DNA from: Acidobacteriota bacterium
GTDB lineage: Bacteria; Acidobacteriota; UBA4820; DSQY01
Direction of reading: 5' to 3'
Length of the DNA stretch: 20,870 nt
Assembly (NCBI GenBank): GCA_022759065.1
Contig: JAEMPZ010000037.1
Span: 1 to 20,870, forward strand
Part shown: positions 3 through 12,495 of the stretch, in pieces
Position numbering within the stretch: the first letter of the stretch is position 1
Layout: each line of letters starts with the position of its first letter
Position numbers and translations under genes: made by a program
Notes under the pieces: generated by a model
Told to the model about the DNA's origin: nothing
What the model saw: only the letters and a program-made list of their open reading frames with translations
Databases searched by the model: none

Positions 3-884
3 GGGGTGGGGCTCCGTGAGGGCCGCTACGCGGCGAGCACCGACTTCCTGGCCGAAGGCGGGGACTTTGAAACCGCTTGGGGGCCGCCAGAGGCCCTAGG
101 CTACAAGGCGCTGGCCGCCAACCTCTCGGACATAGCTTCGAGCGGGGCGGAGCCCGCGTGGTTCTTTCTCACCATAGCGATTCCCGAAGCGCTGAGCGAC
201 AGTTACGTGGAGAGGCTTCTTGCAGGAATGCGCGGCCTCTGTGTTCGAGAGGAGATTCGGCTCGCGGGGGGAGACCTGAGCCGGAGCCGTTCCGGGCTTG
301 CCATCTCAATCACGGTCCTTGGAATCCAGGAGGGCAGGCCGATGAGGCGGGACGGCGGCAGGCCCGGCGACTCCTTGTACGTTTCCGGCCCATTGGGCGG
401 GCCGAGGGCGGCGCTGGCCCGATTCCGCCGCGGCGCTCGTCTTCAATCCTTCGACATCGAGATGCCTCCGCGTGGCGCGCCTAAGCTGCTCGACCGTTTT
501 TTCCGCCCGCCGAGCCAGGCCAAGCTGGGGCTGTTTCTTTCCAGAGAGGCCGCAGCGGGCGCTTGCATGGACATTTCCGACGGCCTTGGGCGCGATCTCG
601 AAAGGTTGTGCCATGCGAGCGGATGCGGCGCCGAAATTGAGGCCGCCGCGCTTCCCGTGGAAAAGTGGGAAGGCGGCGAGGCGGGCCTGCAAGACGCCAT
701 CGAGGGCGGGGAAGAGCAGGTGCTGCTCTTCTCGGTTCCCCAATCGCGGAAGCCCGTTCTCACGCGATCTCCCGTTCCTCTGTTTGAGATAGGGCGCCTT
801 GTAAGCGGCCACGGCGTCATGCTCCTGCAGGGGGGACGGCGGACGGCCATCTCTGGGGTAGGATTTGACCATTTCGGGTCATAG
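3..884 (+). CDS. thiL: Thiamine-monophosphate kinase ThiL (5'-truncated by window edge)
   Basis: ThiL phosphorylates thiamine monophosphate to thiamine diphosphate with ATP, the last cytoplasmic step of cofactor synthesis. The reading frame is open to the window edge, so the N-terminus (probably about 20-30 residues with the first GDDAA-type metal motif) is missing. The GTG at position 6 is unlikely to be the true start. Family landmarks visible are STDFLAEGGDFE (family form is D.LVEGVHF), GYKALAANLSDIASSGAEP, the metal-binding LAGGDLSRS, and the C-terminal ACMDISDGLGRDL and GVGFDHF. These match the AIR-synthase/ThiL fold from end to end. The stop lies 7 nt before the likely ATG of the DUF2062 gene, so it probably heads or belongs to the same transcript. 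A link between thiamine synthesis and the downstream pilus genes is not implied. Confidence 0.93.
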   Translation, partial: GVGLREGRYAASTDFLAEGGDFETAWGPPEALGYKALAANLSDIASSGAEPAWFFLTIAIPEALSDSYVERLLAGMRGLCVREEIRLAGGDLSRSRSGLAISITVLGIQEGRPMRRDGGRPGDSLYVSGPLGGPRAALARFRRGARLQSFDIEMPPRGAPKLLDRFFRPPSQAKLGLFLSREAAAGACMDISDGLGRDLERLCHASGCGAEIEAAALPVEKWEGGEAGLQDAIEGGEEQVLLFSVPQSRKPVLTRSPVPLFEIGRLVSGHGVMLLQGGRRTAISGVGFDHFGS

Positions 885-891
885 CGGCCAA

Positions 892-1329
892 ATGAAGCGC
901 AAAGTTCTCGAAATGGTTCGGCTCGTCTCCGGGCTCGGCGACAGCGCGGCTAGAACAGGCGTGGCGGCGGGCGTCGGGGTTTTCATCGGCCTCTTGCCCA
1001 TAGCGCCATTTCAGACGCTCGTGGCCATAGCCGCCGCTTTCGCCCTGCGCTTGAACCGAGTGGCGGTGTTCGCTGGCACCTTAATCTGGCAGCCATTTAC
1101 CGCGCCCTTCATCCTAGGGGCCGAGCTTGCGGCTGGAAAGCTCATTCTGCCCTCCAGCTCTTTAGACCCCACATGGAAGGCGCGCTGGCTTGTTCCCATC
1201 GCGGCGGGCGCAGCCGTCTTGGCGGCCGTCGGCGGGCTGCTCGCGGGCGTGGCCGTCTTTTGGGCGAAATCATGGTTCGATAGACGAAAGACGCTCTCGC
1301 CCGTCTCTAAAGATGAGGGGCTCCTATGA
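892..1329 (+). CDS. DUF2062 small integral membrane protein
   Basis: A protein of about 145 residues with DUF2062 features: an N-terminal amphipathic stretch, then hydrophobic segments around GVAAGVGVFIGLLPIAPFQT and IWQPFTAPFILGAELAAGKL, and a last membrane segment near the C-terminus (AAGAAVLAAVGGLLAGVAVF). The family is found in many bacteria, often near lipid or glycosyltransferase genes, and has no firmly established biochemical role. I prefer the ATG at 892. A TTG at 865 gives nine extra residues and a 20-nt overlap with thiL, with GGGG 6 nt upstream, so the start is uncertain. The stop overlaps the sigma-factor start by ATGA, indicating translational coupling. Function unknown; the membrane location is inferred from hydrophobicity. 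Confidence 0.8.
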   Translation: MKRKVLEMVRLVSGLGDSAARTGVAAGVGVFIGLLPIAPFQTLVAIAAAFALRLNRVAVFAGTLIWQPFTAPFILGAELAAGKLILPSSSLDPTWKARWLVPIAAGAAVLAAVGGLLAGVAVFWAKSWFDRRKTLSPVSKDEGLL

Positions 1330-1874
1330 CCCCCGAAGAAGCCCGCGAATGGCTCAAAAGGGCTAGAAGGGGGGACGAGGTTGCCTTCTTGCGCCTCGTC
1401 GAGGCGACGCGTGACAGGCTTCTCCGCCTGGCGAAGCGCATGACCGGGCGGGAGGCGGTGGCGGAGGAGATTTTGCAGGAAAGCTATTTCGCCCTTTGGA
1501 GAACGGCTGGGCCGATCCCGGATGATCCTTCGGCTTGGCTGTACAAAGCGTGCCTCAACAGGGCCATAGACATATCGAGGCGCGAAGCCACTTTTCGGGA
1601 AGTGCCAATGGAGGGCTCGGCCTTGCCGGACGACGCCTCGCCCAACCCCGCCGAAATTGCCATGACCAAAGCGGCTTCTGATGCAATGAGCGAAGCGGCG
1701 GCGCTTCTTCCTCCCGCCGAGAGGGTGGTCTTTGCGCTAAGGGCCTACGAAGGGTTCAGCTTCGACGAAATATCTCGACGGCTCTCGATCAGCCAGAGCA
1801 CCGCCCGCAACCAGTACATGTCCGCGCGCCGCCGCATGGCGCTCGTGCTTGCAGCCAAAGGGGTGACGCCGTGA
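1326..1874 (+). CDS. ECF-family RNA polymerase sigma factor
   Basis: A 182-residue sigma factor with only regions 2 and 4, the usual layout and size of the extracytoplasmic-function group. Region 2 (about residues 20-85) contains RLVEATRDRLLRLAKRM, AEEILQESYFALWR and AWLYKACLNRAIDISRR. Region 4 (about 125-175) contains LLPPAERVVFALRAYEG, FSFDEISRRLSISQSTARN and a final basic helix, SARRRM. It would direct RNA polymerase core to a specific promoter set. The ATG overlaps the DUF2062 stop (ATGA) and has GAGGGG 5 nt upstream. The stop overlaps the next start by GTGA. No classical zinc-finger anti-sigma gene (HxxxCxxC) follows; the next gene is a small membrane protein that could take that role. 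Its position at the head of the secretion/pilus genes suggests, but does not prove, that it controls them. Confidence 0.93.
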   Translation: MTPEEAREWLKRARRGDEVAFLRLVEATRDRLLRLAKRMTGREAVAEEILQESYFALWRTAGPIPDDPSAWLYKACLNRAIDISRREATFREVPMEGSALPDDASPNPAEIAMTKAASDAMSEAAALLPPAERVVFALRAYEGFSFDEISRRLSISQSTARNQYMSARRRMALVLAAKGVTP

Positions 1875-2179
1875 CGGAAAACTCGGAGCCCTTTGCAAAA
1901 AACCAGGTTTCCTGGGAACCGTTCATGAACAGCCTCTCCAGGCGCTTTCGCCGCGAGAAACGCCTAAAAAGGCTTCGCCGCCTGGCGGTTTTGGTCTTGG
2001 CATCCGCGGCCTTTATCGGCCTGGGGATGGTCGCGGGACGCCGCCCGCCTCGGGGCAACGCCACTTTGCTGATGGCAGTGGTTCCCTCCTCTACCGCGCC
2101 GGTTTTTGACTCAAACGCCGGCTTGATCGAGGCGCTCCCAGGCGGCGTCTTTCTCATCCATTCCGGAGGCCGGTCATGA
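1871..2179 (+). CDS. Small basic single-pass membrane protein, unrecognised
   Basis: A 102-residue protein starting at GTG, with AAAGGGG about 7 nt upstream and a 4-nt overlap with the sigma-factor stop. I do not recognise the family. The N-terminal 37 residues are strongly basic (SRRFRREKRLKRLRR). One hydrophobic segment follows at about 38-56 (LAVLVLASAAFIGLGMVAG). The C-terminal part of about 45 residues is predicted to lie in the periplasm and ends in EALPGGVFLIHSGGRS. The arrangement (cytoplasmic basic domain, one membrane span, short outside part, directly after an ECF sigma gene) is that of a membrane anti-sigma factor. However, it lacks the zinc-binding anti-sigma motif and is short, so this is only an inference. 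It could equally be a pilus-associated membrane protein. Confidence 0.7.
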   Translation: MTENSEPFAKNQVSWEPFMNSLSRRFRREKRLKRLRRLAVLVLASAAFIGLGMVAGRRPPRGNATLLMAVVPSSTAPVFDSNAGLIEALPGGVFLIHSGGRS

Positions 2180-2853
2180 AAATGAAGGAGGCTGGGCTTC
2201 TTTTGGCCGCCGCGATCCCCCTCATCGTCGCCGCGCAGGAACTGGTGACTTTCAGGGTGCCGCTGAAATATCGCGACGTGCGTTCAGTGATAACAAGAGT
2301 GAGCGAAGAGGTCGGCCCGAGGGGCCAGGTCACGGTTGACCGCGCTTCCAACGCCCTATACATAAGTGACGAGAGGGAGCGCGCCGGCGCCTTGCGGGCG
2401 TTGATCGCGGCCCTCGACGTGCCCCCCCGCCGCTTCGCCCTGCAAGCTTCATTAAGCCTCTACGCGATGCCCAGGAAAACCGGCCTCTTGCGAGACGAGC
2501 CTCTCTTTACCGACGCCACTTCATTTCTCGCGGGCACGGTTCCCAGAGCCAGCGCGGCGCAGGCCATGGACATCAGGGAGGGAGGCTCTTCTCAAGCCAC
2601 CCTGATTCCGGGTTATACGCTGCGCGCCACCGCCGAAGGGTACGACCCGACAAGACGAAGGCTCGCTTTCTCCGAGCTGTCCCTGTCCATGGAATCAGCA
2701 TCCGAGAAGGCGCCCGTTTTCAGTGGCCGCGCCGTGCTCCCGGAAGGCGAACCCACGGTTTTCGTGGCTTCGCTGCCACAAACGGCCGAGGCGTGCCGCC
2801 TTTCCCTCACGCCCGTGCTTATGCCGGAAGCCAACGCGAAGGAGCGGCCCTGA
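2176..2853 (+). CDS. Exported secretin-like protein (N1/NolW-type domain, no secretin channel signature)
   Basis: A 225-residue protein with a probable signal peptide (KEAGLLLAAAIPLIVAAQ, cleavage near AAQ-E). Residues about 23-80 read like a secretin N1 (NolW) module: LVTFRVPLKYRDVRSVITRV, then VTVDRASNALYISDERE and ALRALIAALDVPPRRF. This has the usual alternation ending in the 'LDvp..' turn that precedes the secretin beta domain. The rest (GYTLRATAEGYDPTRRRLAF, FSGRAVLPEGEPTVFVASLP) faintly resembles the beta-strand order of the secretin domain. It lacks the VPxLGxIPxLG-type signature and is far too short for a channel. It is coupled to its neighbours by ATGA upstream and TGATG downstream, with GGAGG 6 nt before the ATG. 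A role as accessory periplasmic ring or docking protein for the machine is inferred; residue-level homology is weak. Confidence 0.65.
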   Translation: MKMKEAGLLLAAAIPLIVAAQELVTFRVPLKYRDVRSVITRVSEEVGPRGQVTVDRASNALYISDERERAGALRALIAALDVPPRRFALQASLSLYAMPRKTGLLRDEPLFTDATSFLAGTVPRASAAQAMDIREGGSSQATLIPGYTLRATAEGYDPTRRRLAFSELSLSMESASEKAPVFSGRAVLPEGEPTVFVASLPQTAEACRLSLTPVLMPEANAKERP

Positions 2854-4070
2854 TGCCGAAATTTGAATGCCGTCTCGGGACCGCCGCCGGCGACGTTGTC
2901 ATAAAGGAGCTCGTGGCGCCAGACGAGCGCGTCCTTCGGGGGCAATTGGAAGAGAAGGGCTACTTCATATTCGGCATACGCCCAAAGAGCGGCTTTTTGG
3001 CGGCGCTCCAAGGAGCGTCTCCGGCGAAACGAAAGGTGGGATCGAAGGAGTTCATAGTTTTCAACCAGGAATTCTCGGCGCTTCTTAAGGCCGGCCTGCC
3101 GGTATTGACGGCGCTGGAGCTCCTGCTCTCGCGCAAAAGGAACACCTTCTTCGAGAAGCTTCTGGAAGAGGTGAAAGAGGACGTGCGCTCCGGGGCGTCG
3201 CTGTCCGAAGCCTTCGCAAACCGCGGCGACGTCCTTCCGAGAATTTACCCGGCGACGATCGCCTCGGGAGAGAGAAGCGGCGAGTTGGTCACGGTGATAC
3301 AGAGATACCTCTTCTACCTGAAAACAGCCCAGGACGTGAAAAAGAAAATCGCTTCCGCCGTGATTTACCCGGCCATTCTTTTAACCCTGGCCGCGGTGCT
3401 GATAACGGTTCTAATGACGTTTATAGTTCCCAAATTCGCCCAGCTTTTCATGGGGGCCGGGGCGAAATTGCCTCTTCTTACCCGTTTAGTGCTCGGCGTT
3501 TCCAAGGTCTTCCAGTACGGATGGCCGCTGATGCTGGCCGTCGTCATCGCCGCGCCATTAACCGTTAAGGCCATCGCTTCCAGGCCGAACGGCCGCCTGA
3601 TGCTGGACCGCTTCTACCTCCGCCTTCCGCTCTTCGGGATAAACGTGCGGCGCTACAACATCGCGAACATGTGCCGCACGCTTGGAACGCTGGTGCAGGG
3701 AGGCATCCCGGTGGTCACCGCGCTTGACGTGGTGGCCGACGCGCTCGGCAACGCCTTCTACCGCGTCGGGCTGCAGGAGGCGAAGAGGCTCGTTTTGGAG
3801 GGCCAGTCGCTCTGGTCGAGCCTGGAGCGCACCGGAACAGCGACGCCGCTGGCGATAGAGATGATTGAAGTGGGAGAGTCAACCGGCGCGCTCGCCGAAA
3901 TGCTCGACCAGGTGAGCCGATTTTACGACGACGAGCTCACCACGGCGGTGGAACGCTTCATTGCGATGCTGGAGCCGGCGCTCCTGGTCGTCATGGCCGT
4001 TTTGGTGGCCATCATCGTGCTTTCCGTGTACATGCCGCTCTTTTCAATGTACAATCTCGTTGGGGGATAG
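2853..4070 (+). CDS. gspF: GspF/PilC-family inner-membrane platform protein
   Basis: The 405-residue polytopic platform protein of type II secretion / type IV pilus systems. It sits in the inner membrane and couples the cytoplasmic ATPase to pseudopilin insertion. An N-terminal cytoplasmic part (1-68) precedes two copies of the T2SSF domain. The first (about 69-193) has FNQEFSALLKAGLPVLTALE and ATIASGERSGEL; the second (about 268-398) has MCRTLGTLVQGGIPVVTAL and EMIEVGESTGALAEML. The paired 'GExSG/GExTG' motifs are diagnostic. Membrane spans lie near 168-192, 223-244 and 370-395. The ATG at 2853 overlaps the previous stop (TGATG) and has AAGGAG 8 nt upstream. A longer in-frame extension to 2793 exists but would overlap the previous gene by 60 nt and adds nothing family-like. 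The length fits the family. Confidence 0.97.
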   Translation: MPKFECRLGTAAGDVVIKELVAPDERVLRGQLEEKGYFIFGIRPKSGFLAALQGASPAKRKVGSKEFIVFNQEFSALLKAGLPVLTALELLLSRKRNTFFEKLLEEVKEDVRSGASLSEAFANRGDVLPRIYPATIASGERSGELVTVIQRYLFYLKTAQDVKKKIASAVIYPAILLTLAAVLITVLMTFIVPKFAQLFMGAGAKLPLLTRLVLGVSKVFQYGWPLMLAVVIAAPLTVKAIASRPNGRLMLDRFYLRLPLFGINVRRYNIANMCRTLGTLVQGGIPVVTALDVVADALGNAFYRVGLQEAKRLVLEGQSLWSSLERTGTATPLAIEMIEVGESTGALAEMLDQVSRFYDDELTTAVERFIAMLEPALLVVMAVLVAIIVLSVYMPLFSMYNLVGG

Positions 4071-4084
4071 GAGTAACATCGGCC

Positions 4085-5734
4085 ATGCCAGCTCAGCCCG
4101 CGGATGTCCTTGCAAACCTGCCCACGGAAGGCGAACTCCTCAACGAGGAGAAGAACGCCCGCCGCCTCGCAGAGAGCTTGAAGCTCCCCTACTTCGACCT
4201 GAAGGAGTTTCGGGCCGACCCGGCGCTATTTCAGGCCATCCCGGTGGACCTGATGTTCCGCTATACTTTCGTGCCCATCGCCGACGAGGGCGACGCCGTC
4301 ACGGTGGTGACATCCGACCCCGCCAATGTGACCATGCTCGACGAGCTCGAAGCGCACCTAAAGCGCCGAGTGCGGGTGAAGGTCGGGGCGCGTAGCGCGA
4401 TCACCGAGATACTGAAAAAGTCCGAGTCGAGCCAGCGCGTACTGGAGGAGGTCTCCGAGGACTTTCGCATGCAGATCGTCCGCGAGGACGCGCAGGACGG
4501 CGAGGAAGAGGTCGTCTCGATCGAAAAGCTCTCGGAGGACACGAGCCCCATCATCAAGCTGGTGGATTACACCGTCTTCAACGCCCTGCAAAGGCGGGCC
4601 AGCGACGTTCACGTGGAGACCGGCGACAACGAGGTGCAGATCAAGTACCGCATAGACGGCGTGCTCTATCCCGCCATGGAACCGATTGACAAGAGGTTTC
4701 ACGCGACCATCATCTCCCGCATAAAGGTCATGGCCGAGCTGGACATCGCGGAGAAGCGCGTGCCTCAGGACGGCCGGTTCAAGCTGAAGGTCAAGGGGCG
4801 CACCGTTGATTTCCGCGTCAGCATCATCCCGACGATCCATGGCGAGGATTGCGTCATCAGAATCCTGGACAAGGAATCCACGAGCGAGGAGTTCAAGAAG
4901 CTCAGCCTCGACGTGCTGGGGCTTGAGCCGGAGCTTCGGCGAAGGATCCGCCGCCACGCGGCCGAGCCTTACGGGATGCTCCTTGTCACTGGGCCCACCG
5001 GCTCCGGAAAAACGACCACGCTTTACGCGATCCTCAGCGAAATACAATCCGGCGAGTTCAAGATGATCACCATCGAGGACCCGGTCGAGTACCAGCTCAA
5101 GGGCGTCACTCAAATACCGGTCAACGAAAAGAAGGGGCTCACCTTCGCCCGCGGGCTGCGCTCGATCCTCCGCCACGACCCGGACAAGATCATGGTCGGC
5201 GAAATCAGGGACGAGGAGACGGCCAACATCGCCATTCAGTCGGCGCTGACCGGGCACCTCGTCTTCACGACGGTTCACGCCAACAACGTCGTGGACGTGC
5301 TGGGGCGCTTTCTGAACATGAAGGTCGAGCCATACAACTTCGTCTCCGCGCTCAACTGCGTGCTTGCCCAGCGGCTCGTCAGGCGCATCTGCCCCAACTG
5401 CCGCGAGAAAGTGACCTATCCAGATTCAGTTTACGAGGAGTCCAATATCCCCCTTGAAAAGGCCAGGGGCGTTGAAGTCTATGAGGGCAAGGGCTGCTTG
5501 GACTGCAACGGCACCGGCTTTAGGGGCAGAATGGCCATCGCGGAACTTTTGGACATGAGCGACAACATAAGGGAGCTCATCGTCAACCGGCGCCCTTCGA
5601 GCGAAATCAAGCGCGCCGCGAGAGAAGAGGGGATGGTTTCGCTGCGCGAAGCCGCGGTCAAGTGCTTCCTGGCGGGCGACACGACGCTGAAGGAAATAAA
5701 CAAGGTTACCTTCGTTGACGAGCCGATAAGATGA
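4085..5734 (+). CDS. gspE: GspE/PilB-family assembly ATPase
   Basis: A 549-residue hexameric ATPase that powers pseudopilus or pilus extension at the cytoplasmic face of the platform protein. An N-terminal T2SSE_N-type domain (about 20-125) is followed by the catalytic N2 and C domains. Walker A is GPTGSGKT at 303-310. The Asp-box region is MITIEDPVEYQL, Walker B is IMVGEIRDEETANIA (about 369-382), and the His box is GHLVFTTVHANN. A zinc-binding four-cysteine site is present: C436-x2-C439 (CPNC) and C471-x2-C474 (CLDC), typical of GspE/PilB and absent from PilT. The only spacing break in this part of the operon is the 14 nt after gspF. GGAG lies 11 nt before the ATG, a somewhat long distance, but no better start is available. 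The stop overlaps the PilM-like start (ATGA). Confidence 0.98.
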   Translation: MPAQPADVLANLPTEGELLNEEKNARRLAESLKLPYFDLKEFRADPALFQAIPVDLMFRYTFVPIADEGDAVTVVTSDPANVTMLDELEAHLKRRVRVKVGARSAITEILKKSESSQRVLEEVSEDFRMQIVREDAQDGEEEVVSIEKLSEDTSPIIKLVDYTVFNALQRRASDVHVETGDNEVQIKYRIDGVLYPAMEPIDKRFHATIISRIKVMAELDIAEKRVPQDGRFKLKVKGRTVDFRVSIIPTIHGEDCVIRILDKESTSEEFKKLSLDVLGLEPELRRRIRRHAAEPYGMLLVTGPTGSGKTTTLYAILSEIQSGEFKMITIEDPVEYQLKGVTQIPVNEKKGLTFARGLRSILRHDPDKIMVGEIRDEETANIAIQSALTGHLVFTTVHANNVVDVLGRFLNMKVEPYNFVSALNCVLAQRLVRRICPNCREKVTYPDSVYEESNIPLEKARGVEVYEGKGCLDCNGTGFRGRMAIAELLDMSDNIRELIVNRRPSSEIKRAAREEGMVSLREAAVKCFLAGDTTLKEINKVTFVDEPIR

Positions 5735-6645
5735 TGGACTTCGCCCGTTTATTGGAAAGCCTGCCTCCCGAATTGCCGCCAGTGGCTTTGCTGCTGGAGC
5801 CGCCAACGGCGTGCGGCTTGCGCGCCGCCAGATCGCGCGGCGGGATTTCGATCCTATCCAAGGCGGAGCAGCCTTTCGCCCCCATCTCAGAAAACCTGGA
5901 GTTGGAAAGCGCGTCCCTCGAAGCGCTGGCCACGAAGCTGCTCGCCCCTCTCGGCCAGCCTCAGCGCGCTTCCATCATCCTGGGCGATTCGCTCGTCCGA
6001 ATGCAGGTGCTCAGCCTGAGCGACTTTCCATCCAAGGAGGAAGAGCGCCAACAGGTGCTTAAGTGGCATGTAAAGAAAGTGCTTAACTGGGAGCCGGGCG
6101 ATCTTCGCATTCGCTATCACGTCTTTGAGCGCAGCGGCCAGACGGCGACGCTATGGCTCACGATGGGCTCCGAGAACCTCATACGCGCCCTGGAGGGCGC
6201 CTTCGCGAAACAGGGCTGCCACATCGGGTACATAGGGGGCGTGACGCCGGAGCTTTACGGCCTCGCCTCGCGCAAGGAGGCTCTTCCGAACGACGGCGCG
6301 GCGCTTCTGATAAACAGGACGCCCGGGGCCGTTTCGTTCCTTTTTACTGAAAGGGGCCTCCCCCAGTTTTTCAGGTGCAAGGAGCTATGGGATTCGGATG
6401 GCGACGACGCCGAGATGGTGGCCCAGGAGATTCGCCTGACCCTGGCCTACCAACGGGAGCGGCTTGGCGGCGCTCCGCTCAGGGTGGCTTTCACACGCTG
6501 CTCGCCGCCATCGCTTGCGCTGCCTCTTGAAGGGGCCGTTGGCGACAACACCGAGGTCGTTGCGCTCAGGGAAAGGCTCCCTTCGGCCGTTGAGGCCGAG
6601 AGGACCGAGATGACCCTGCCACTTTTCGGCGTCCTGGAGGAGTGA
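5731..6645 (+). CDS. pilM: PilM/GspL-like cytoplasmic assembly protein, degenerate actin-like fold
   Basis: A 304-residue soluble protein in the pilM position, between the ATPase and the PilN/PilO-like genes. In the family, PilM has an actin-like fold, binds ATP and the N-terminus of PilN, and links the ATPase to the periplasmic alignment complex. Family-like stretches are VRMQVLSLSDFP followed by EEERQQVLKWHVKKVLNWEP (the 'fP....e...a...e....lp' region), and MVAQEIRLTLAYQRERLGG (the late 'EIrrsl.yy' helix). The two phosphate loops normally read DIGxxxVK near the N-terminus and DIGAxxT in the middle. Here they read VALLLEPPTACGLR and ALLINRTPGAVSF, so nucleotide binding may be lost. It is shorter than typical PilM (about 350). 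Assignment rests on context plus weak similarity; GspL-like is the alternative. Confidence 0.75.
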   Translation: MMDFARLLESLPPELPPVALLLEPPTACGLRAARSRGGISILSKAEQPFAPISENLELESASLEALATKLLAPLGQPQRASIILGDSLVRMQVLSLSDFPSKEEERQQVLKWHVKKVLNWEPGDLRIRYHVFERSGQTATLWLTMGSENLIRALEGAFAKQGCHIGYIGGVTPELYGLASRKEALPNDGAALLINRTPGAVSFLFTERGLPQFFRCKELWDSDGDDAEMVAQEIRLTLAYQRERLGGAPLRVAFTRCSPPSLALPLEGAVGDNTEVVALRERLPSAVEAERTEMTLPLFGVLEE

Positions 6646-6647
6646 CC

Positions 6648-7220
6648 GTGAAACGCCTTCACAGCAACCTCGCGACCGCGCCGTTCATCAACAGGCGCGT
6701 TCCCGTGGCCGTCGCCGCGTCGCTGATTGGCCTCGCGCTATTGGCGACGGTTGTCAGCGTGGCCCTCTTCGGCCTTCGGGGCGGCGAGTACAGGAGCCAG
6801 CGCAAGACGCTTGAGGAGCAGCGCCTCAAGCTCGACAAGATCAACAGGGAGTTGTCCGAGGAAAAGAGGCTTCTGCAAGGCCCGGCCGTGGCGACTTACG
6901 CCTCGGAGGGCGGCTTCATGGCCCAGGTTCTCGACCATAAGAGATTCGACTGGATCGCGCTCCTGGACAGGGTGGAGGCGATCAAACCCTACGGCGCCAG
7001 GTTCACGGACGTCTCCCCGCAGCGCGACGAAAAAACCGGCTGGACTATCCGCCTTAAAGGCGAAGCCAACAACCGTGACGAGATACTCAAGCTGGAGGCG
7101 AACCTCTTTGCAAGCCCCTTTTTCCAGGAGCCGCGCCTTTTGAGGGAGGGGCGCCAGACCAACAGCCAGACGCTGCAGTTCGAGGTGTCCGCGGCGTATC
7201 TGCCAGAGGCGAAGCCATGA
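6648..7220 (+). CDS. pilN: PilN-like inner-membrane alignment protein
   Basis: A protein of about 190 residues with the PilN layout: a short cytoplasmic tail (KRLHSNLATAPFINRR, which in the family binds PilM), one membrane span (about 17-41, VAVAASLIGLALLATVVSVA), a coiled coil (about 50-72, LEEQRLKLDKINRELSEEKR) and a periplasmic ferredoxin-like domain (DWIALLDRVEAIKPYGARFT, then the IRLKGEANNRDEILKLEANL helix). I chose GTG 6648 because GGAGG at 6636-6640 is 7 nt upstream. GTG 6642, which overlaps the previous stop as GTGA, has the same ribosome site only 1 nt away. The stop overlaps the next start by ATGA. It would pair with the PilO-like protein in the periplasm. Confidence 0.82.
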   Translation: MKRLHSNLATAPFINRRVPVAVAASLIGLALLATVVSVALFGLRGGEYRSQRKTLEEQRLKLDKINRELSEEKRLLQGPAVATYASEGGFMAQVLDHKRFDWIALLDRVEAIKPYGARFTDVSPQRDEKTGWTIRLKGEANNRDEILKLEANLFASPFFQEPRLLREGRQTNSQTLQFEVSAAYLPEAKP

Positions 7221-7861
7221 ACGTCAACATTGACGCCCTCATCAGGAAAGGCTTCGTCAAGGCGGCAGTCGCGGCGCTGGCCGTGCTCCTCTTGAACATT
7301 TTTGTCTATTTCTTCGGGATCGCGAGGCTCGGCTCGGTGACGGCGTCGCAGAAGAGGGAAATTGAAACCAACAGCCAGAAAATCAAGGAACTGGAAGCGC
7401 AGCGAGACGCCGCCTCGGAGAAGGCCTCCGTCTACCGCCAAGGCTCCAAGGTGCTCCAGACGCTTGGGAGCGACTATTTCAAGACAAGGGCCGAGCGCTT
7501 CGCGCCACTGCAGAAGGATCTTCAAAAGATTCTCGAGGCCAACGGCCTTTCAAACGACAACATCGCCTACTCTTACGGAGAGGAGCCGAAGGATGCCGCA
7601 AAGGCCTCGTGGCGCCACGCGTACATTATCGTGCAGATTCCTTTGGCCGTCAGCGGCTCGTATCCTCAAGTCAAGAAGTTCATTGCCGACCTGGAAGCTT
7701 CGCCCCAGTTTTACGTCGTGGAAGACGTGAGCCTCTCCGCCTCGACCCAGGGCGCGGTGCTTCTTAACGCGCGCCTCGCTTTGAAGACCCTCTTTCTCGC
7801 CGACGGCGAAATCGTGGCGAAGGATGAAGGGGCGAAGAGCCCGAAAAAGGAGGCGTCTTGA
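7217..7861 (+). CDS. pilO: PilO-like inner-membrane alignment protein
   Basis: A 214-residue bitopic protein with the PilO architecture. A short cytoplasmic N-terminus is followed by a membrane span at about 14-36 (KAAVAALAVLLLNIFVYFFG). A coiled coil at about 48-75 (NSQKIKELEAQRDAASEKAS) precedes a periplasmic domain. That domain shows the family's KDLQKILEANGL helix, the VQIPLAVSGSYPQVKKFIAD strand-helix and FYVVEDVSLSAS. It is expected to heterodimerise with the PilN-like neighbour and hold the PilP-like lipoprotein. The lysine-rich C-terminal tail (KDEGAKSPKKEAS) looks disordered. The start overlaps the PilN stop (ATGA). The stop overlaps the next TTG start (TTGA), and AAGGAGG inside this gene's end serves that next gene. 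Confidence 0.82.
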   Translation: MNVNIDALIRKGFVKAAVAALAVLLLNIFVYFFGIARLGSVTASQKREIETNSQKIKELEAQRDAASEKASVYRQGSKVLQTLGSDYFKTRAERFAPLQKDLQKILEANGLSNDNIAYSYGEEPKDAAKASWRHAYIIVQIPLAVSGSYPQVKKFIADLEASPQFYVVEDVSLSASTQGAVLLNARLALKTLFLADGEIVAKDEGAKSPKKEAS

Positions 7862-8487
7862 AAGCCGCATGGGGCGCGCTGTTTCTGCTGGTTTTATCGT
7901 CAGCCTGCTCCGGTGACGGGCAGGCGGTAGCTCGCCCAACCACGCCAAGAGACATCGAGGAGGCGGGATCTGCCCGCCCGGCCGCTCGCGCGCAAGCGAA
8001 GCCCGCCGCTCCGGCCTCTCTGCCTGTCTTGAGCCTCGACGGCCTCTTCGGGGCGCAGCCGCCCGCGGATGAATCCGCCGCCGCGCAACCTTCCGCCGCC
8101 AGAAACCTTTTTGCCTTTGAAGAAGACCCAGCCGTGGTTGCCGAACGCCAGCGGCAGGCCGAGGAGGCGCGGAAGGCCGCGGAGGTTGCGGCGAAGAAGG
8201 CAGCCGAAGAGGCGGCAAAACAGCAGGAGTACCTTCGCGCCCATCCGCCGCCGCCCCAACCACCGCCGATAACTTTTACCTTCATCGGTTATATGGGGCC
8301 ACCCGAAAACCGCATCGGCGTCTTTTCGGTTCCGGGCAGCAGCGGCCTGGTTCTGGCGAAAGCAGGCGACCATATAGCTCAAAGGTTCATCGTCAAAGAG
8401 GTGGGTTACGAATCGGCGGAAATAGGCTTTGACGGTTTCACCGAAACAAAGCGCATTACGCTCACCCCAGGAGGGAGCCAACCATAA
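7858..8487 (+). CDS. PilP-like periplasmic lipoprotein with Ala/Glu/Lys-rich spacer
   Basis: A 209-residue probable lipoprotein occupying the pilP position between pilO and the secretin gene. The signal peptide ends in VLSSAC (Cys17). The lipobox is imperfect because Leu is at -4, not -3. The middle is low complexity: Ala/Pro-rich, then a charged helical run of about 30 residues (RQRQAEEARKAAEVAAKKAA) and a polyproline stretch (HPPPPQPPP), resembling a periplasm-spanning spacer. The C-terminal 70 residues look like the small PilP/GspC beta domain: FTFIGYMGPPENRIGVFSV, LVLAKAGDHIAQRFIVKEVG, YESAEIGFDGFTETKRITL. In the family this domain contacts the secretin N domains. It starts at TTG with AAGGAGG 4 nt upstream and a TTGA overlap. 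The next gene starts at TAATG. The family call is by layout and context. Confidence 0.68.
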   Translation: MKAAWGALFLLVLSSACSGDGQAVARPTTPRDIEEAGSARPAARAQAKPAAPASLPVLSLDGLFGAQPPADESAAAQPSAARNLFAFEEDPAVVAERQRQAEEARKAAEVAAKKAAEEAAKQQEYLRAHPPPPQPPPITFTFIGYMGPPENRIGVFSVPGSSGLVLAKAGDHIAQRFIVKEVGYESAEIGFDGFTETKRITLTPGGSQP

Positions 8488-10868
8488 TGAATACCGCCAT
8501 GAAGTCATCGGTCCTTGTCCTTTTGCTCCTGGCCATGATGGCCTGCGGCTCCGCCGCTTATTACCACGGGAGAAGGCTGTACGACCACGGCCAATACGAC
8601 GACGCCGTCACTTACCTGCAAAAGGCCCGCGACGAAAAGCCTAAGGACCTGAAGATAGAAACGACTCTCGTGCGGGCGAAGCTGGCCGCCTCTCAAAAAC
8701 ACCAGATGGCGGCTAACATCGCGCTTGCTCGCCAGGATTACCAGACGGCGCTCAACGAGCTTCAGAAGACGCTCGCCTTCGACCCAAGCAACCAAAAAGC
8801 CCAAGACGACCTGGAAAGGGTGGTGAAGATACTGAGCGAGGCCGAACAGAAGGCGAGGCAATCCAAGATAACCATTGACGAAATGAAAGAGCAGGCCAAC
8901 ACGGAGAGCCAGGGCAGGCTGCTAGACCCCGCCTCGAACATACCTCTCGTACTCAAGTTCACCAACACGCCGGTCAAGACGATCCTCGACGCCATCTCCA
9001 AGGCGAGCGGCGTCAACTTCATCTATGACGAACGGGCCGACACGCAGAAGAAGGTGACGATTGATTTCTCAAACGTCAGGATGGAACAGGTCCTCGACTA
9101 CCTGATGCTCCAGACAAAGCACTTTTACCAGGTCCTGGACTCGCACACGCTGATCATCATTCCCGACAACAAACAGAAGCGCGACGAGTACGAGCAGCAG
9201 GTTATGCGCACCTTCTACCTCTCCAACGCCGACGCGAAGGACGTCTTCCAGCTCGTCCGCTCCATCCTGCAAACGCGCAAGATGGCGATGAGCCAGGACT
9301 TGAACTCGATCACGATAAAGGACACGCCGGAAATGGTGGCTTTGGCCCAGCGCATCATCGAGGCAAACGACAAAAGCAAAGGCGAGGTGGCCGTTGACGT
9401 CGAGCTGATCGAGGTGAACTCCAACTGGGACAGAAACCTGGGAGTTGACCTCTCAAGTCATGCGGTTACTGTAATGCCAAGGTATAACGCCCTTTATGGC
9501 GGCACAAACAACCAGGGACCGCCGCTGCCATCGGGCCAGTATGGCCGTGCGCTGCACGACAGCATGTACATTACGCCTCTCCCCAATTTCCTCGTTAATT
9601 TCCTGCTGACCGATACGGATACGCAGGTTCTTGCCAGGCCGCAGCTTCGCGTAATGGAGGGGAAGAAGGCCTCCGTGCACATAGGCGACAAAGAACCCAT
9701 TCCCACGGCAAACCTTAGCTACCCTACAACCGGCACGGGCACCACCTATGTCCCCATGACCTCTTACACCTACCAAGACATCGGCGTAAAGATTGACATC
9801 GAGCCCAAGGTACACCACAACAGAGAGATTACCATCAAGCTCAAGGCGGAAGTCTCCAACGTCACGGGCACCATCCCGGCATCGGGATACACGCCTGCTC
9901 AGCCGATTATTGGAACGCGGGAAATCACGACCGAAATACGCCTTGAAGATGGAGAAACCAGCCTTTTGGCGGGCCTGATTCGAAAAGAGGATACAACTTC
10001 GTACAGCGGACTTCCGGGCCTCGGCGAAGTTCCATTTTTGAGAAGGCTCTTTGGAAACACGGAGAAGAAGAAGGTCTCGACGGATGTCGTCGTTCTCTTG
10101 ACCCCGCACATTATACGCATGCCCAACATCACCGACCAGGACCTGCGCGCGCTCTGGGTTGGCACGGAGCAGGCGCCCAAGCTGCAAGGCTTCAGGGAGA
10201 GTTCGTTCGCGCCGTCGCCTTTTGAAGCGCCGGCCACCACTCCCGCCCCATCGCCCGCGCCCTCCCCATCCAAGGAAAAGGAGAAGCCATCTCCCGAACC
10301 GCCGAAGCCAGCTCCGGATGGGGCCGCCACGGCGCCGGCCCCCGCGCCAGCACCGGCGCAGCAGCCGCAGGCCGCGAACGTTCCAGCGGAATTGCCGCAG
10401 CCTCCCGACCAAACGCCGGCTCCCGGCGGCCAGGCCCGCATTCTTGTGAGCCCAACAAGCCTGCAGACCGCGCCTGGCGGAACGGTCGTCCTGAACATGG
10501 TGGTAGTCGGCGCCAAAGACGCCAGGGGGCTTAAGATGGAGGTTGATTATCCGACTGACGTGCTTGCTTTCCAGGGCGCCGACGAAGGAACCTTCTTCAA
10601 GATGGGCGGAGGCTCGTCAAGCTTCGAGGCGCACGAATCTAAACCGGGAACTTTGGTGGTTGACACGGGAAGGGCAGATGACGGCACCTCCTCTGGTTCC
10701 GGGCTTCTGCTTCGACTTCGGTTCTCCGCCGCCAAAAACGGCGTGGCGAGGGTTAACATGGGAACAGGGGCAATAACAGACGGCGCCGGCGCCAACGCCG
10801 CGCTGCCGCCCGTTTCAAGCGTAATTACCGTCAGCGGAGGAGGCGGTGCGCCACCTTCGAAGCCGTGA
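8487..10868 (+). CDS. gspD: Secretin (GspD/PilQ family) lipoprotein with TPR N-terminus and C-terminal cohesin-like domain
   Basis: A 793-residue outer-membrane channel protein. An N-terminal signal with a weak lipobox (LAMMAC, Cys20) is followed by TPR-like repeats (about 22-105: YYHGRRLYDHGQYDDAVTYL and DYQTALNELQKTLAFDPSN). An STN/N0-type domain spans about 150-237 (VKTILDAISKASGVNFIYDE) and an N1 domain about 240-305 (MRTFYLSNADAKDVFQLVRS, LNSITIKDTPEMVALAQRII). The secretin beta domain (about 310-545) has VAVDVELIEVNSNWDRNLGV, VLARPQLRVMEGKKASVHIG, LEDGETSLLAGLIRKED and the signature GLPGLGEVPFLRRLFG. A Pro/Ala-rich linker (about 570-650) leads to a final domain (about 651-790) reading ARILVSPTSLQTAPGGTVVL, LKMEVDYPTDVLAFQG and LLLRLRFSAAKNG, typical of cohesins. 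Typical PilQ/GspD proteins have no cohesin. The start is ATG at 8487 in TAATG, with AGGAGGG 11 nt upstream. The end overlaps the next gene by 23 nt. Confidence 0.96.
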   Translation: MNTAMKSSVLVLLLLAMMACGSAAYYHGRRLYDHGQYDDAVTYLQKARDEKPKDLKIETTLVRAKLAASQKHQMAANIALARQDYQTALNELQKTLAFDPSNQKAQDDLERVVKILSEAEQKARQSKITIDEMKEQANTESQGRLLDPASNIPLVLKFTNTPVKTILDAISKASGVNFIYDERADTQKKVTIDFSNVRMEQVLDYLMLQTKHFYQVLDSHTLIIIPDNKQKRDEYEQQVMRTFYLSNADAKDVFQLVRSILQTRKMAMSQDLNSITIKDTPEMVALAQRIIEANDKSKGEVAVDVELIEVNSNWDRNLGVDLSSHAVTVMPRYNALYGGTNNQGPPLPSGQYGRALHDSMYITPLPNFLVNFLLTDTDTQVLARPQLRVMEGKKASVHIGDKEPIPTANLSYPTTGTGTTYVPMTSYTYQDIGVKIDIEPKVHHNREITIKLKAEVSNVTGTIPASGYTPAQPIIGTREITTEIRLEDGETSLLAGLIRKEDTTSYSGLPGLGEVPFLRRLFGNTEKKKVSTDVVVLLTPHIIRMPNITDQDLRALWVGTEQAPKLQGFRESSFAPSPFEAPATTPAPSPAPSPSKEKEKPSPEPPKPAPDGAATAPAPAPAPAQQPQAANVPAELPQPPDQTPAPGGQARILVSPTSLQTAPGGTVVLNMVVVGAKDARGLKMEVDYPTDVLAFQGADEGTFFKMGGGSSSFEAHESKPGTLVVDTGRADDGTSSGSGLLLRLRFSAAKNGVARVNMGTGAITDGAGANAALPPVSSVITVSGGGGAPPSKP

Positions 10869-11322
10869 AAACGGCTTTACAATTTTCGAGGTCGGCCTGA
10901 GCGTCGCCATCCTGGCGATTCTCGCGATGGTGGCCATTCCGACCGCGCAGGTGATGAGCAGGCGCGCCAAGGAGGTCGAACTGTTGCAAGACCTTCGCGT
11001 CATGAGGCGCGCGATTGACGAGTACCACCGCTACGCCATGCAGGGCATGATACAGCAGACGGACGTTTCCCAGGACTTTTACCCTTCGGACCTTGAAACG
11101 CTCGTCGAGGGTACCGAAATCGTCGGCGACCCAACCGGAAAAAAGCTTCGCTTTCTCAGGCGGATTCCGATTGACCCGATGACCAAGAGCACCGAATGGG
11201 GCCTGCGCTCCACGAAAGACGACTTCGATTCGACGAGCTGGGGCGGCGAAAACGTCTACGACGTATATTCGACGAGCGAAGCGCTGGCGCTCGACGGCAA
11301 GACGCACTACAACGAATGGTAG
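10846..11322 (+). CDS. Type II secretion GspG-like pseudopilin (first of three)
   Basis: A 158-residue pseudopilin with a 10-residue basic leader ending in Gly10. The class III signal is ENG/FTIFEVGLSVAILAIL: Phe at +1, Glu at +5, then a hydrophobic helix of about 20 residues, so prepilin peptidase should cut after Gly10. The C-terminal domain has helix AKEVELLQDLRVMRRAIDEY, the motif RIPIDPMTKSTEWGLR and an end DVYSTSEALALDGKTHYNEW, which resembles the calcium-binding loop end of GspG. The start is GTG with GGAGGAGG just upstream, inside the 3' end of the secretin gene (23-nt overlap). The next pseudopilin starts 5 nt downstream and shares the same motifs, so the two are tandem paralogues. 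It would form part of the pseudopilus fibre pushed by the ATPase. Confidence 0.92.
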   Translation: MRHLRSRENGFTIFEVGLSVAILAILAMVAIPTAQVMSRRAKEVELLQDLRVMRRAIDEYHRYAMQGMIQQTDVSQDFYPSDLETLVEGTEIVGDPTGKKLRFLRRIPIDPMTKSTEWGLRSTKDDFDSTSWGGENVYDVYSTSEALALDGKTHYNEW

Positions 11323-11327
11323 GGCAC

Positions 11328-11771
11328 ATGGCGAAAAGGAAACCGGAAAATGCGCTAATGGGCAAGCGCGGCGAGCGCGGCTTTACGCTCATTGAGTTGA
11401 TGGTCGTAATAGCCATAATCGGGATTCTAGTCAGCATGGCCGCGCCAAGCTACCAGCACATCGTCCAGCGCGCTCAAGAAACCGTTCTCCGCCATAACCT
11501 CGCCGCCATAAGAGAAGTCATAGACCAGTATTACGCTGACAAGGGCAAATACCCGGACTCGCTCGGCGCCCTTGTCAGCGCAGGCTATTTCAGGGGGCAC
11601 CTGCCGATAGATCCAATTACCAAGCAATCGAACTGGGTTGAAGTCCCCTTCAGCGGCAACGAAGAGGGCCAGCTCGAACCGACCGAAGGCGAAGAAGCAA
11701 CTGGCATTTGGGATGTTCATTCGGCATCGGAGGATACCGCGCTTGACGGCACAAAGTACTCGACGTGGTGA
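11328..11771 (+). CDS. gspG: Type II secretion GspG-like major pseudopilin (second of three)
   Basis: A 147-residue pseudopilin with the most canonical signal of the three: ERG/FTLIELMVVIAIIGIL, with Phe +1 and Glu +5. This makes it the best candidate for the major pseudopilin. The ATG at 11328 gives an 18-residue leader; an in-frame ATG at 11358 would give an 8-residue leader (MGKRGERG), closer to the usual length. Neither has a strong ribosome site, so the start is unsettled. After the hydrophobic helix come AAIREVIDQYYADKGKYPDS, LPIDPITKQSNWVEV and the ending IWDVHSASEDTALDGTKYST-W, the same pattern as in the upstream paralogue. An open frame continues upstream to 11196 but overlaps the first pseudopilin heavily and is not family-like, so I excluded it. 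Confidence 0.93.
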   Translation: MAKRKPENALMGKRGERGFTLIELMVVIAIIGILVSMAAPSYQHIVQRAQETVLRHNLAAIREVIDQYYADKGKYPDSLGALVSAGYFRGHLPIDPITKQSNWVEVPFSGNEEGQLEPTEGEEATGIWDVHSASEDTALDGTKYSTW

Positions 11772-11793
11772 CTTCGGCTTCGCGCCCGCGCGT

Positions 11794-12495
11794 ATGCGAG
11801 GGCGCAAGGCCGAAGGGGGCTTCACGTTCCTGGCCGTCCTCGTCGCTCTCTTCGTCTTGGCCGTGCTGCTTCTGGAGGCCGCCGAGCCGGCAACGGTCAT
11901 CATGCGCCGCCAGCGCGAGGCTGAGCTGATTTTCCGCGGCGAGGCCTACGTCGAAGCAATCCGCTTGTACCAATCAGAACACGGCGGCACTTACCCGACA
12001 AAGCTGAAACAACTGATTGAACAGGGTCCGAAGAGGCACCGGTACATCCGCCAGCTTTATAGAAACCCGTTTGATCCGGAAGGAAAATGGGGGCTTTTGG
12101 CCCCGGGCGTGACAGTTCTCAAGCCAAAAGTTCAGAAGGAAAAAGGAAGCTCCTCGGACGTCTTCCCCAACGATTCGTCCGAAGAGCAGCCGCAGCAAGG
12201 CCAGATTTCCCCAGGCCAGCAAAACCCTGGCGGCATTCAGCAGGCGCCGGGCCAGCCCGGAATGGCGCCAGGAAGCCAGGTGCTGCCATTCAAGCTGGAC
12301 GGCCAGGAGGGCCAGCCCATCCTGGGCGTTTACGCCAAAGTTGATCAGGATGCCTTTGCCGAGTATCGCGGCAAAAAGAACATCGGCGAATGGTTTTTCT
12401 CGCCGCTGGTTATCCCGCCGCCTCCCCCGCCGGTCCCGCCAGGCGTCATCTTGCGCCCACAGGGCGGCATTCAGCCCGGCCAGTCGCCGAAGTAG
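11794..12495 (+). CDS. Large minor pseudopilin lacking Glu+5, with Pro/Gln-rich insert
   Basis: A 233-residue prepilin-like protein with an 8-9 residue leader (MRGRKAEGG) and signal [19 protein letters not shown]. Position +5 of the mature chain is Ala, not Glu. Loss of Glu+5 is known for the tip pseudopilin GspK. The soluble part carries [20 protein letters not shown], the motif [15 protein letters not shown] (the counterpart of the DP..W motif in the two upstream pseudopilins), a Gln/Pro/Gly-rich insert at about 125-175, [20 protein letters not shown] and IGEWFF, and a polyproline tail. The start at ATG 11794 is 22 nt after the previous stop; the open frame extends upstream but overlaps the second pseudopilin. 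It is the last gene of the + strand run and converges with rho. A tip or minor role is inferred. Confidence 0.82.

Follow-up and report, generated by a model that had tools for sequence, protein, structure and literature searches.

How production of a type II secretion system (T2SS) or a type IV pilus (T4P) is matched to its assembly in bacteria is, to our knowledge, little understood; the classical flagellar parallel is the export of FlgM. The question is raised by a 20,870-nucleotide stretch of an Acidobacteriota genome (assembly GCA_022759065.1, contig JAEMPZ010000037.1, positions 1 to 20,870; the whole stretch is called the window). Here a gene for an extracytoplasmic function (ECF) sigma factor heads a T2SS-type operon, followed by genes for a small transmembrane (TM) protein and a predicted dwarf secretin, the three forming a module just ahead of gspF. 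Does the machine control its own expression through this module? The favored answer, with a probability of about 60%, is an autogenous secretion operon: the sigma factor would drive its own operon, the TM protein would inhibit it and the dwarf secretin would report the state of the secretin complex. The source genome of the window is incomplete (1.9 Mb, 86.5% complete, 275 contigs).

The sigma/TM and TM/secretin-like junctions are 4-nt overlaps, and the secretin-like gene overlaps gspF by 1 nt in a TGATG, taking ATG 2853 as the gspF start; a GTG at 2793 gives a longer frame. gspE begins 15 nt past the end of gspF, and the pilM-like, pilN, pilO and pilP genes are chained via further 4-nt overlaps. 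The earlier note on this DNA had described such an overlap chain leading into gspF, gspE, pilMNOP, gspD and pseudopilin genes, and the open reading frames (ORFs) and overlaps were confirmed. Family calls were based on Pfam and NCBIfam models with their cut-offs. The 182-residue sigma factor has sigma2 and sigma4 domains only (Sigma70_r2 at residues 24-88, 7e-11; r4_2 at 120-171, 6e-12), the composition of ECF (group IV) members of the sigma70 family. An assembly ATPase, a platform protein, a secretin and pseudopilins in one locus place the remainder with T2SS and type IV filament machines. Because the overlap between DUF2062 and the sigma gene is not conserved, the operon unit begins at the sigma gene. 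Linkage and overlaps, like the homology, promoter motif and sigma lineage described below, are read from the sequence, and the folds are predicted.

The 119 related genomes searched for the sigma factor include the 12 others of the window's genus, family and order; 10 of these have a relative, at 1e-21 to 1e-43, and in the remaining two (G008, G012) the gspD locus lies on short contigs that do not reach the sigma end. In all 11 order genomes with a readable sigma end, the window included, the sigma, TM and secretin-like genes follow one another with 4-nt overlaps at both junctions. As far as contigs reach, the order-wide arrangement is thiL-(DUF2062)-sigma-TM-secretin-like-gspF-gspE-pilMNOP-gspD-pseudopilins; three family f2 genomes have thiL preceding sigma without a DUF2062 match.

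Of 80 genomes of the phylum (out of 106) searched with a gspD profile, 64 gave a match. The best secretin locus was taken from 60 of the 64, and genes were mapped with hidden Markov models (HMMs) built for this analysis. A sigma gene, a TM ORF, a secretin-like gene and gspF stand in a row in 16 of the 60 fetched loci, from 14 other Acidobacteriota families. Forty of the 60 loci have gspF, 23 of them without a sigma-plus-secretin-like pair upstream; gspF was not found in the stretch in the other 20. In three further genomes (G014, G056, G087) sigma, secretin-like and gspF genes were seen on other contigs, and in G021 an ECF gene with no promoter-like motif lies 1.9 kb ahead of the secretin-like gene. 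A scan of named genomes with the gspD alignment returned 14 loci, five outside the window's order. Of these five, L165 starts within gspE, L168 shows a distant gspD only, and Mor1, Bpl_9 and Polarisedimenticola have the order lon-sigma-TM-secretin-like-gspF. In L164, L166 and L167 lon is upstream of sigma, in the window it is on the other strand past the operon, and the operon has stayed near lon. Finding the same arrangement in distant relatives suggests that the machine probably controls its own production. With gene order and overlaps recurring in the order, and the four-gene row in those 14 families, the linkage is more than chance.

The operon sigma factors form one lineage. A tree was built from 45 sequences: 27 operon sigmas, 12 non-operon ECFs drawn from the 30 best-matching loci of the sigma search, five sigmas of family f21, and that of G021. 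The 27 operon sigmas are separated from the 12 ECFs and the five f21 sequences by a branch (95/87) that appears in 96% of 200 bootstrap trees. The lineage of the window's sigma factor includes operon sigmas from 13 other families and two named loci, and the G021 sigma, which was assigned to no group, falls among them. Long branches occur in three rows. Recent insertion of the sigma gene is ruled out by the conserved order, the distant families and the single lineage. The 2021 re-classification of ECF sigma factors may hold the operon sigma group.

A promoter-like motif, TAGAC[AG]-N15/16-CGTC, precedes the sigma gene in 10 of 10 order genomes, the window included. The distance is 45-90 nt, counted from where the aligned sigma region begins, which in some cases differs from the start codon. 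This exact form is found in none of the 16 regions outside the order. A wider form, T[AG]GA[CT][AG]-N15/16-CGT[ACT], is present in 13 of those 16, or 23 of 26 operon sigmas overall, as against 81 of 10,238 windows of 200 nt drawn at random from the same loci (0.8%), a contrast flattered by the choice of the wider pattern after viewing these sequences and by the relatedness of the genomes. The -10 element is CGTC only in the window's order; elsewhere it is CGTA in 12 and CGTT in G096. The spacer is 15 nt in family f1 and 16 nt elsewhere. These -10 and spacer shifts are possibly a natural case of sigma-promoter co-evolution. Classical ECF promoters have a -10 CGT and a -35 AAC, and autoregulation is predicted for about 55% of ECFs (PMC8103513). 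The motif was absent within 400 nt before gspF in the 23 loci without the module (238 nt in L204).

A large regulon is unlikely, since no genome-wide excess of the motif was found. Eight order genomes gave 107 matches versus 99 for a reversed-pattern control, and 20 of the 107, chosen by eye because of their spacing or likeness, showed no evident common neighbor in an unsystematic listing of ORFs. In 10 other genomes the CGTA form gave 74 matches versus 149 in the control; 8 of the 10 operon motifs were among the 74, those of G096 (CGTT) and G044 (TAGATA) not. The motif was also not found at any of 11 prepilin-peptidase loci, so the peptidase is not an evident sigma target. A handful of further targets beyond the operon may still exist. 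The earlier note had suggested self-controlled expression and named, as a check, a shared promoter motif upstream of thiL/DUF2062 and at other loci. The motif does lie before the sigma gene, at the 3' end of DUF2062, and not upstream of thiL. Self-control itself gained support from the motif at sigma, the co-encoded anti-sigma-like protein, the single lineage and the lack of a genome-wide excess. Autoregulation of the operon is thus well supported by inference.

What might the dwarf secretin sense? The 225-residue protein matches Secretin_N (2e-9) and no PF00263 secretin domain was found in it; its predicted fold resembles secretins, and three more matches (E<=0.001) came from a viral fold library, among them the secretin known as phage protein IV. 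The third module protein is predicted to be a dwarf secretin, and its secretin-like fold makes a response to the envelope or assembly state plausible. The nearest precedent is VreAIR-Hxc of Pseudomonas aeruginosa, in which an ECF sigma factor, a membrane anti-sigma factor and a small periplasmic protein of the secretin/TonB N-type are likewise encoded beside a T2SS, and sigma-VreI raises hxc expression (PMC2729926, PMC7035377). The earlier statement that secretion operons usually carry no ECF sigma factor of their own overlooks this system. There are differences. VreA has a TolA-like C-terminal part whereas the dwarf secretin has a secretin-like beta domain; in P. aeruginosa a vreA fusion showed no response to VreI, and PhoB is required for the vre operon; the Vre regulon includes two-partner secretion (TPS) and exbBD genes; and hxc neighbors vreAIR, whereas in the window the four genes from sigma to gspF overlap in a single chain headed by a candidate promoter. 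The module also resembles the cell-surface signaling systems Fec, Fox and Pup, with an ECF sigma factor, a membrane-anchored anti-sigma factor and a secretin-related periplasmic STN domain; STN-type domains contact anti-sigma tails in such systems (PMC11637429). Unlike Fec, Fox and Pup it has no TonB-dependent receptor, and its anti-sigma tail of ~46 residues has no Pfam domain; no TonB-dependent transducer ORF was found between sigma and gspF, and no STN domain in the TM protein.

The alternative that survives best is that the sigma/anti-sigma pair responds to some general signal, from the envelope or from nutrients, and simply drives the secretion operon, while the dwarf secretin is structural or accessory, for example a secretin assembly partner, and does no signaling. 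The overlap of its gene with gspF as well as with the TM gene would fit such a part, and the analogous VreA is not needed for activation of sigma-VreI (PMC7035377). This explanation is nevertheless considered the less likely one, since the machine exists without the dwarf secretin, which travels with the sigma factor: the HMM map shows its gene in none of the 23 gspF loci without the module, although two of these show <700 nt upstream and a diverged copy could escape.

The middle protein of the module is fuller-looking outside the window's order. The motif Hx3Cx2C, which marks zinc-type class I anti-sigma domains, occurs in 14 of the 16 loci outside the order (lacking in G054 and G096), as in ChrR, RsiW and RseA, with helices and then a TM segment; in this class a three-helix part binds sigma4 and helix 4 binds sigma2 (PMC7406223). 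A single hydrophobic TM-like stretch is present in 16 of 16, and the start overlaps the sigma gene by 4 nt in 10 of 16 (chosen starts), the others lying within 54 nt. An AlphaFold2 (AF2) model of the Mor1 protein has helices at 7-11, 18-30, 32-41, 43-50 and 57-75, a TM helix and a C-terminal hairpin, in agreement with the four-helix class I layout of PMC7406223; it was built from 6 sequences only and, with a mean predicted local distance difference test (pLDDT) score of 59.5, is confident for about the first 50 residues only.

In the window the TM protein (102 residues, no Pfam match) is predicted to have ~37 cytosolic residues, one TM segment and ~46 periplasmic residues. Unlike ChrR, RsiW and RseA, the order proteins keep only the fourth-helix part and the TM segment, and the window protein is too short in its cytosolic part to have the full three-helix bundle plus helix 4 of a class I anti-sigma domain (ASDI). 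This leads to a second alternative, that the TM protein has lost its anti-sigma role in the window's order and sigma is controlled by amount only, through autoregulation or translational coupling. Indeed the cytosolic part is a mere 33-39 residues and Hx3Cx2C is absent in 9 of 9 aligned order proteins. In the same nine, however, the segment before the TM has an invariant W and F and many positive charges, and its helix aligns to the helix-4 region of the relatives' anti-sigma-like proteins (profile comparison: 89.5%, E 2e-6, 30 columns); moreover the TM gene and its 4-nt overlap are kept in 11 of 11 order genomes. Loss of the anti-sigma role is thus rather improbable. The order protein is probably an anti-sigma factor reduced to helix 4 plus an anchor, and it may still bind sigma.

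The autogenous reading would then work as follows. The ECF sigma factor would recognize a TAGACR-N15/16-CGTM promoter directly ahead of its gene and so transcribe its own operon. The TM protein would hold the sigma factor, with a zinc-motif class I type doing so in most module-bearing Acidobacteriota and a helix and anchor in the window's order, where the trimmed protein would have retained the sigma2-binding helix. The dwarf secretin, in the periplasm or at the outer membrane, could contact the anti-sigma tail, or parts of GspD and PilP, or both, and so report the state of the secretin complex; this signal would set the production level of the whole T2SS-type machine. The response could go either way, with more machine made on ring failure or a shut-off once the ring is complete. 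What we infer here is that the promoter is active, that sigma is bound and that sensing takes place. A bolder form, in which an old acidobacterial meter of ring assembly runs from the dwarf secretin, a relative of the machine's own outer ring, through a membrane anti-sigma factor, shrunken in the window's order, to a sigma factor with its own operon as single target, is put forward tentatively, at somewhat less than even odds.

Several observations weigh against the autogenous reading. First, besides the flattered contrast, the wider motif is missing in 3 of 26 regions (G029, G084 and G021), and its -35 element, TAGAC, is unlike the classical ECF AAC box. Second, with no zinc motif or three-helix bundle the window's TM protein may not inhibit sigma; even the Mor1 protein matches Pfam zf-HC2 only below threshold (E 0.14), and the Polarisedimenticola middle protein has no Pfam zinc-finger match. 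Third, the dispensability of VreA for sigma activation in P. aeruginosa counts here too. Fourth, machines without an adjacent sigma gene, the counter-example named by the earlier note, do occur in some relatives: at least 21 of 38 judged gspF loci have the machine without the module, none of them in the window's order. (Of the 23, L204 and L211 are cut within 0.7 kb of gspF, too near to judge, which leaves 38.) The module is therefore not essential to the machine, and judging by its distribution it is widespread and probably old, though not universal, in Acidobacteriota.

A chance insertion of an unrelated ECF gene beside a secretion operon is a very improbable explanation: ECF genes are frequent in genomes, and in family f21 another one is found downstream of pilM, but the gene order is the same throughout the readable order genomes and in 14 other families, with one sigma lineage at the operon and a shared promoter-like motif. 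The f21 genes (L223 229-966, L224 3-533, L225 3-488, L227 18495-19115) directly follow pilM in an operon of T2SS type with a rearranged order, gspF-gspE-gspD-pp1-pp2-pilM-sigma (gspF is not in the L223 stretch). In the tree they fall outside the operon lineage, and they were taken as a case apart, in which an ECF sigma factor was possibly paired with a secretion machine a second time and independently. In G035 (L224) no secretin-like match was seen, and a weak ECF match lies 1.4 kb upstream of gspF.

The features of the window are collected in Table 1. None of the GspE, GspF and PilB scores reaches its NCBIfam cut-off, so these proteins are divergent and the models leave T2SS-type versus T4P-type undecided. 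One T2SSE-type ATPase was found among the window ORFs typed, and PilT is absent from the locus. Adjoining PilB (785 bits, cut-off 676) and PilT (493, cut-off 319) genes lie elsewhere in the source genome (G000:C64; L089 220-3108), which indicates that the operon locus is not the retractile pilus; the only prepilin-peptidase match in that genome is also away from the locus (G000:C28:4933-5256). The earlier remark that neither PilT nor a prepilin peptidase is nearby therefore holds for the locus and not for the genome, and extension-only secretion stays plausible for the locus beside a separate PilB/PilT pair. The lone peptidase may serve both systems. The window GspD has a cohesin-like domain after a Pro/Ala-rich linker, below cut-off here and above it in Mor1; such a domain seems unusual for a secretin. 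In pseudopilin 2 the prepilin motif spans residues 58-82, which puts the true start inside the ORF limit; in pseudopilin 3 it begins at residue 56, with the true start near 11794.

Table 1. Features of the window, in order of position
Feature	Position	Strand	Basis and remarks
thiL, cut by window edge	3-884	+	ORF
DUF2062	865-1329	+	ORF
Candidate ECF promoter: -35 TAGACG, 15-nt spacer, -10 CGTC	1281..1305	+	conserved motif; inside 3' end of DUF2062
ECF sigma factor, 182 aa	1326..1874	+	Pfam Sigma70_r2, r4_2; NCBIfam sigma70-ECF above cut-off
102-aa membrane protein, probable trimmed anti-sigma factor	1871..2179	+	topology; profile match to helix-4 region of relatives
225-aa dwarf secretin (predicted)	2176..2853	+	N-terminal hydrophobic segment, secretin N-type domain, beta domain
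gspF / pilC	2853..4070	+	T2SSF 4e-56; GspF 319 bits, below cut-off 424
gspE / pilB assembly ATPase	4085..5734	+	T2SSE 5e-130, MshEN; GspE 532 bits (cut-off 630), PilB 529 bits (cut-off 676), both below
pilM-like	5731..6645	+	no Pfam match; position and similarity in relatives
pilN-like	6642..7220	+	PilN 1e-5
pilO / gspM-like	7217..7861	+	T2SSM_b 4e-4, PilO 6e-3, both below cut-off
pilP-like, lipoprotein-type	7858..8487	+	no Pfam match; position and conservation
Secretin gspD: N-terminal TPRs, C-terminal cohesin-like domain	8487..10868	+	Secretin 2e-39, TPR_19; Cohesin 6e-4, below cut-off
Pseudopilin 1	10846..11322	+	N_methyl below cut-off; GspG-like below cut-off
Pseudopilin 2, GspG-like	11196..11771 (ORF limits)	+	N_methyl 4e-10, above cut-off
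Pseudopilin 3	11638..12495 (ORF limits)	+	N_methyl 1e-3, below cut-off
rho, engB, lon, clpX, clpP, tig	beyond operon end at 12495	-	ORFs

T2SS-type clusters outside the classical GspC-O layout are known, such as the atypical type II system Oxp of Geobacter. T2SS genes have been reported from acidobacteria, with no regulation described in the text available (PMC8787282), and the word Acidobacteria does not appear in the main text of a survey of type IV filament systems (PMC6668835). A literature search combining ECF sigma, T2SS, Acidobacteria, anti-sigma and secretin, covering in part titles and the starts of abstracts, found no such cassette. With a compact and conserved sigma/anti-sigma/dwarf-secretin cassette, perhaps with a single target promoter, the matching of production to assembly becomes testable. 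The cassette suggests a function for the 'hypothetical' proteins ABI59_02040 and ABI59_02045 of Mor1, and the motif provides a promoter to search for elsewhere. If the trimmed protein of the window's order works, it would be a minimal anti-sigma factor.

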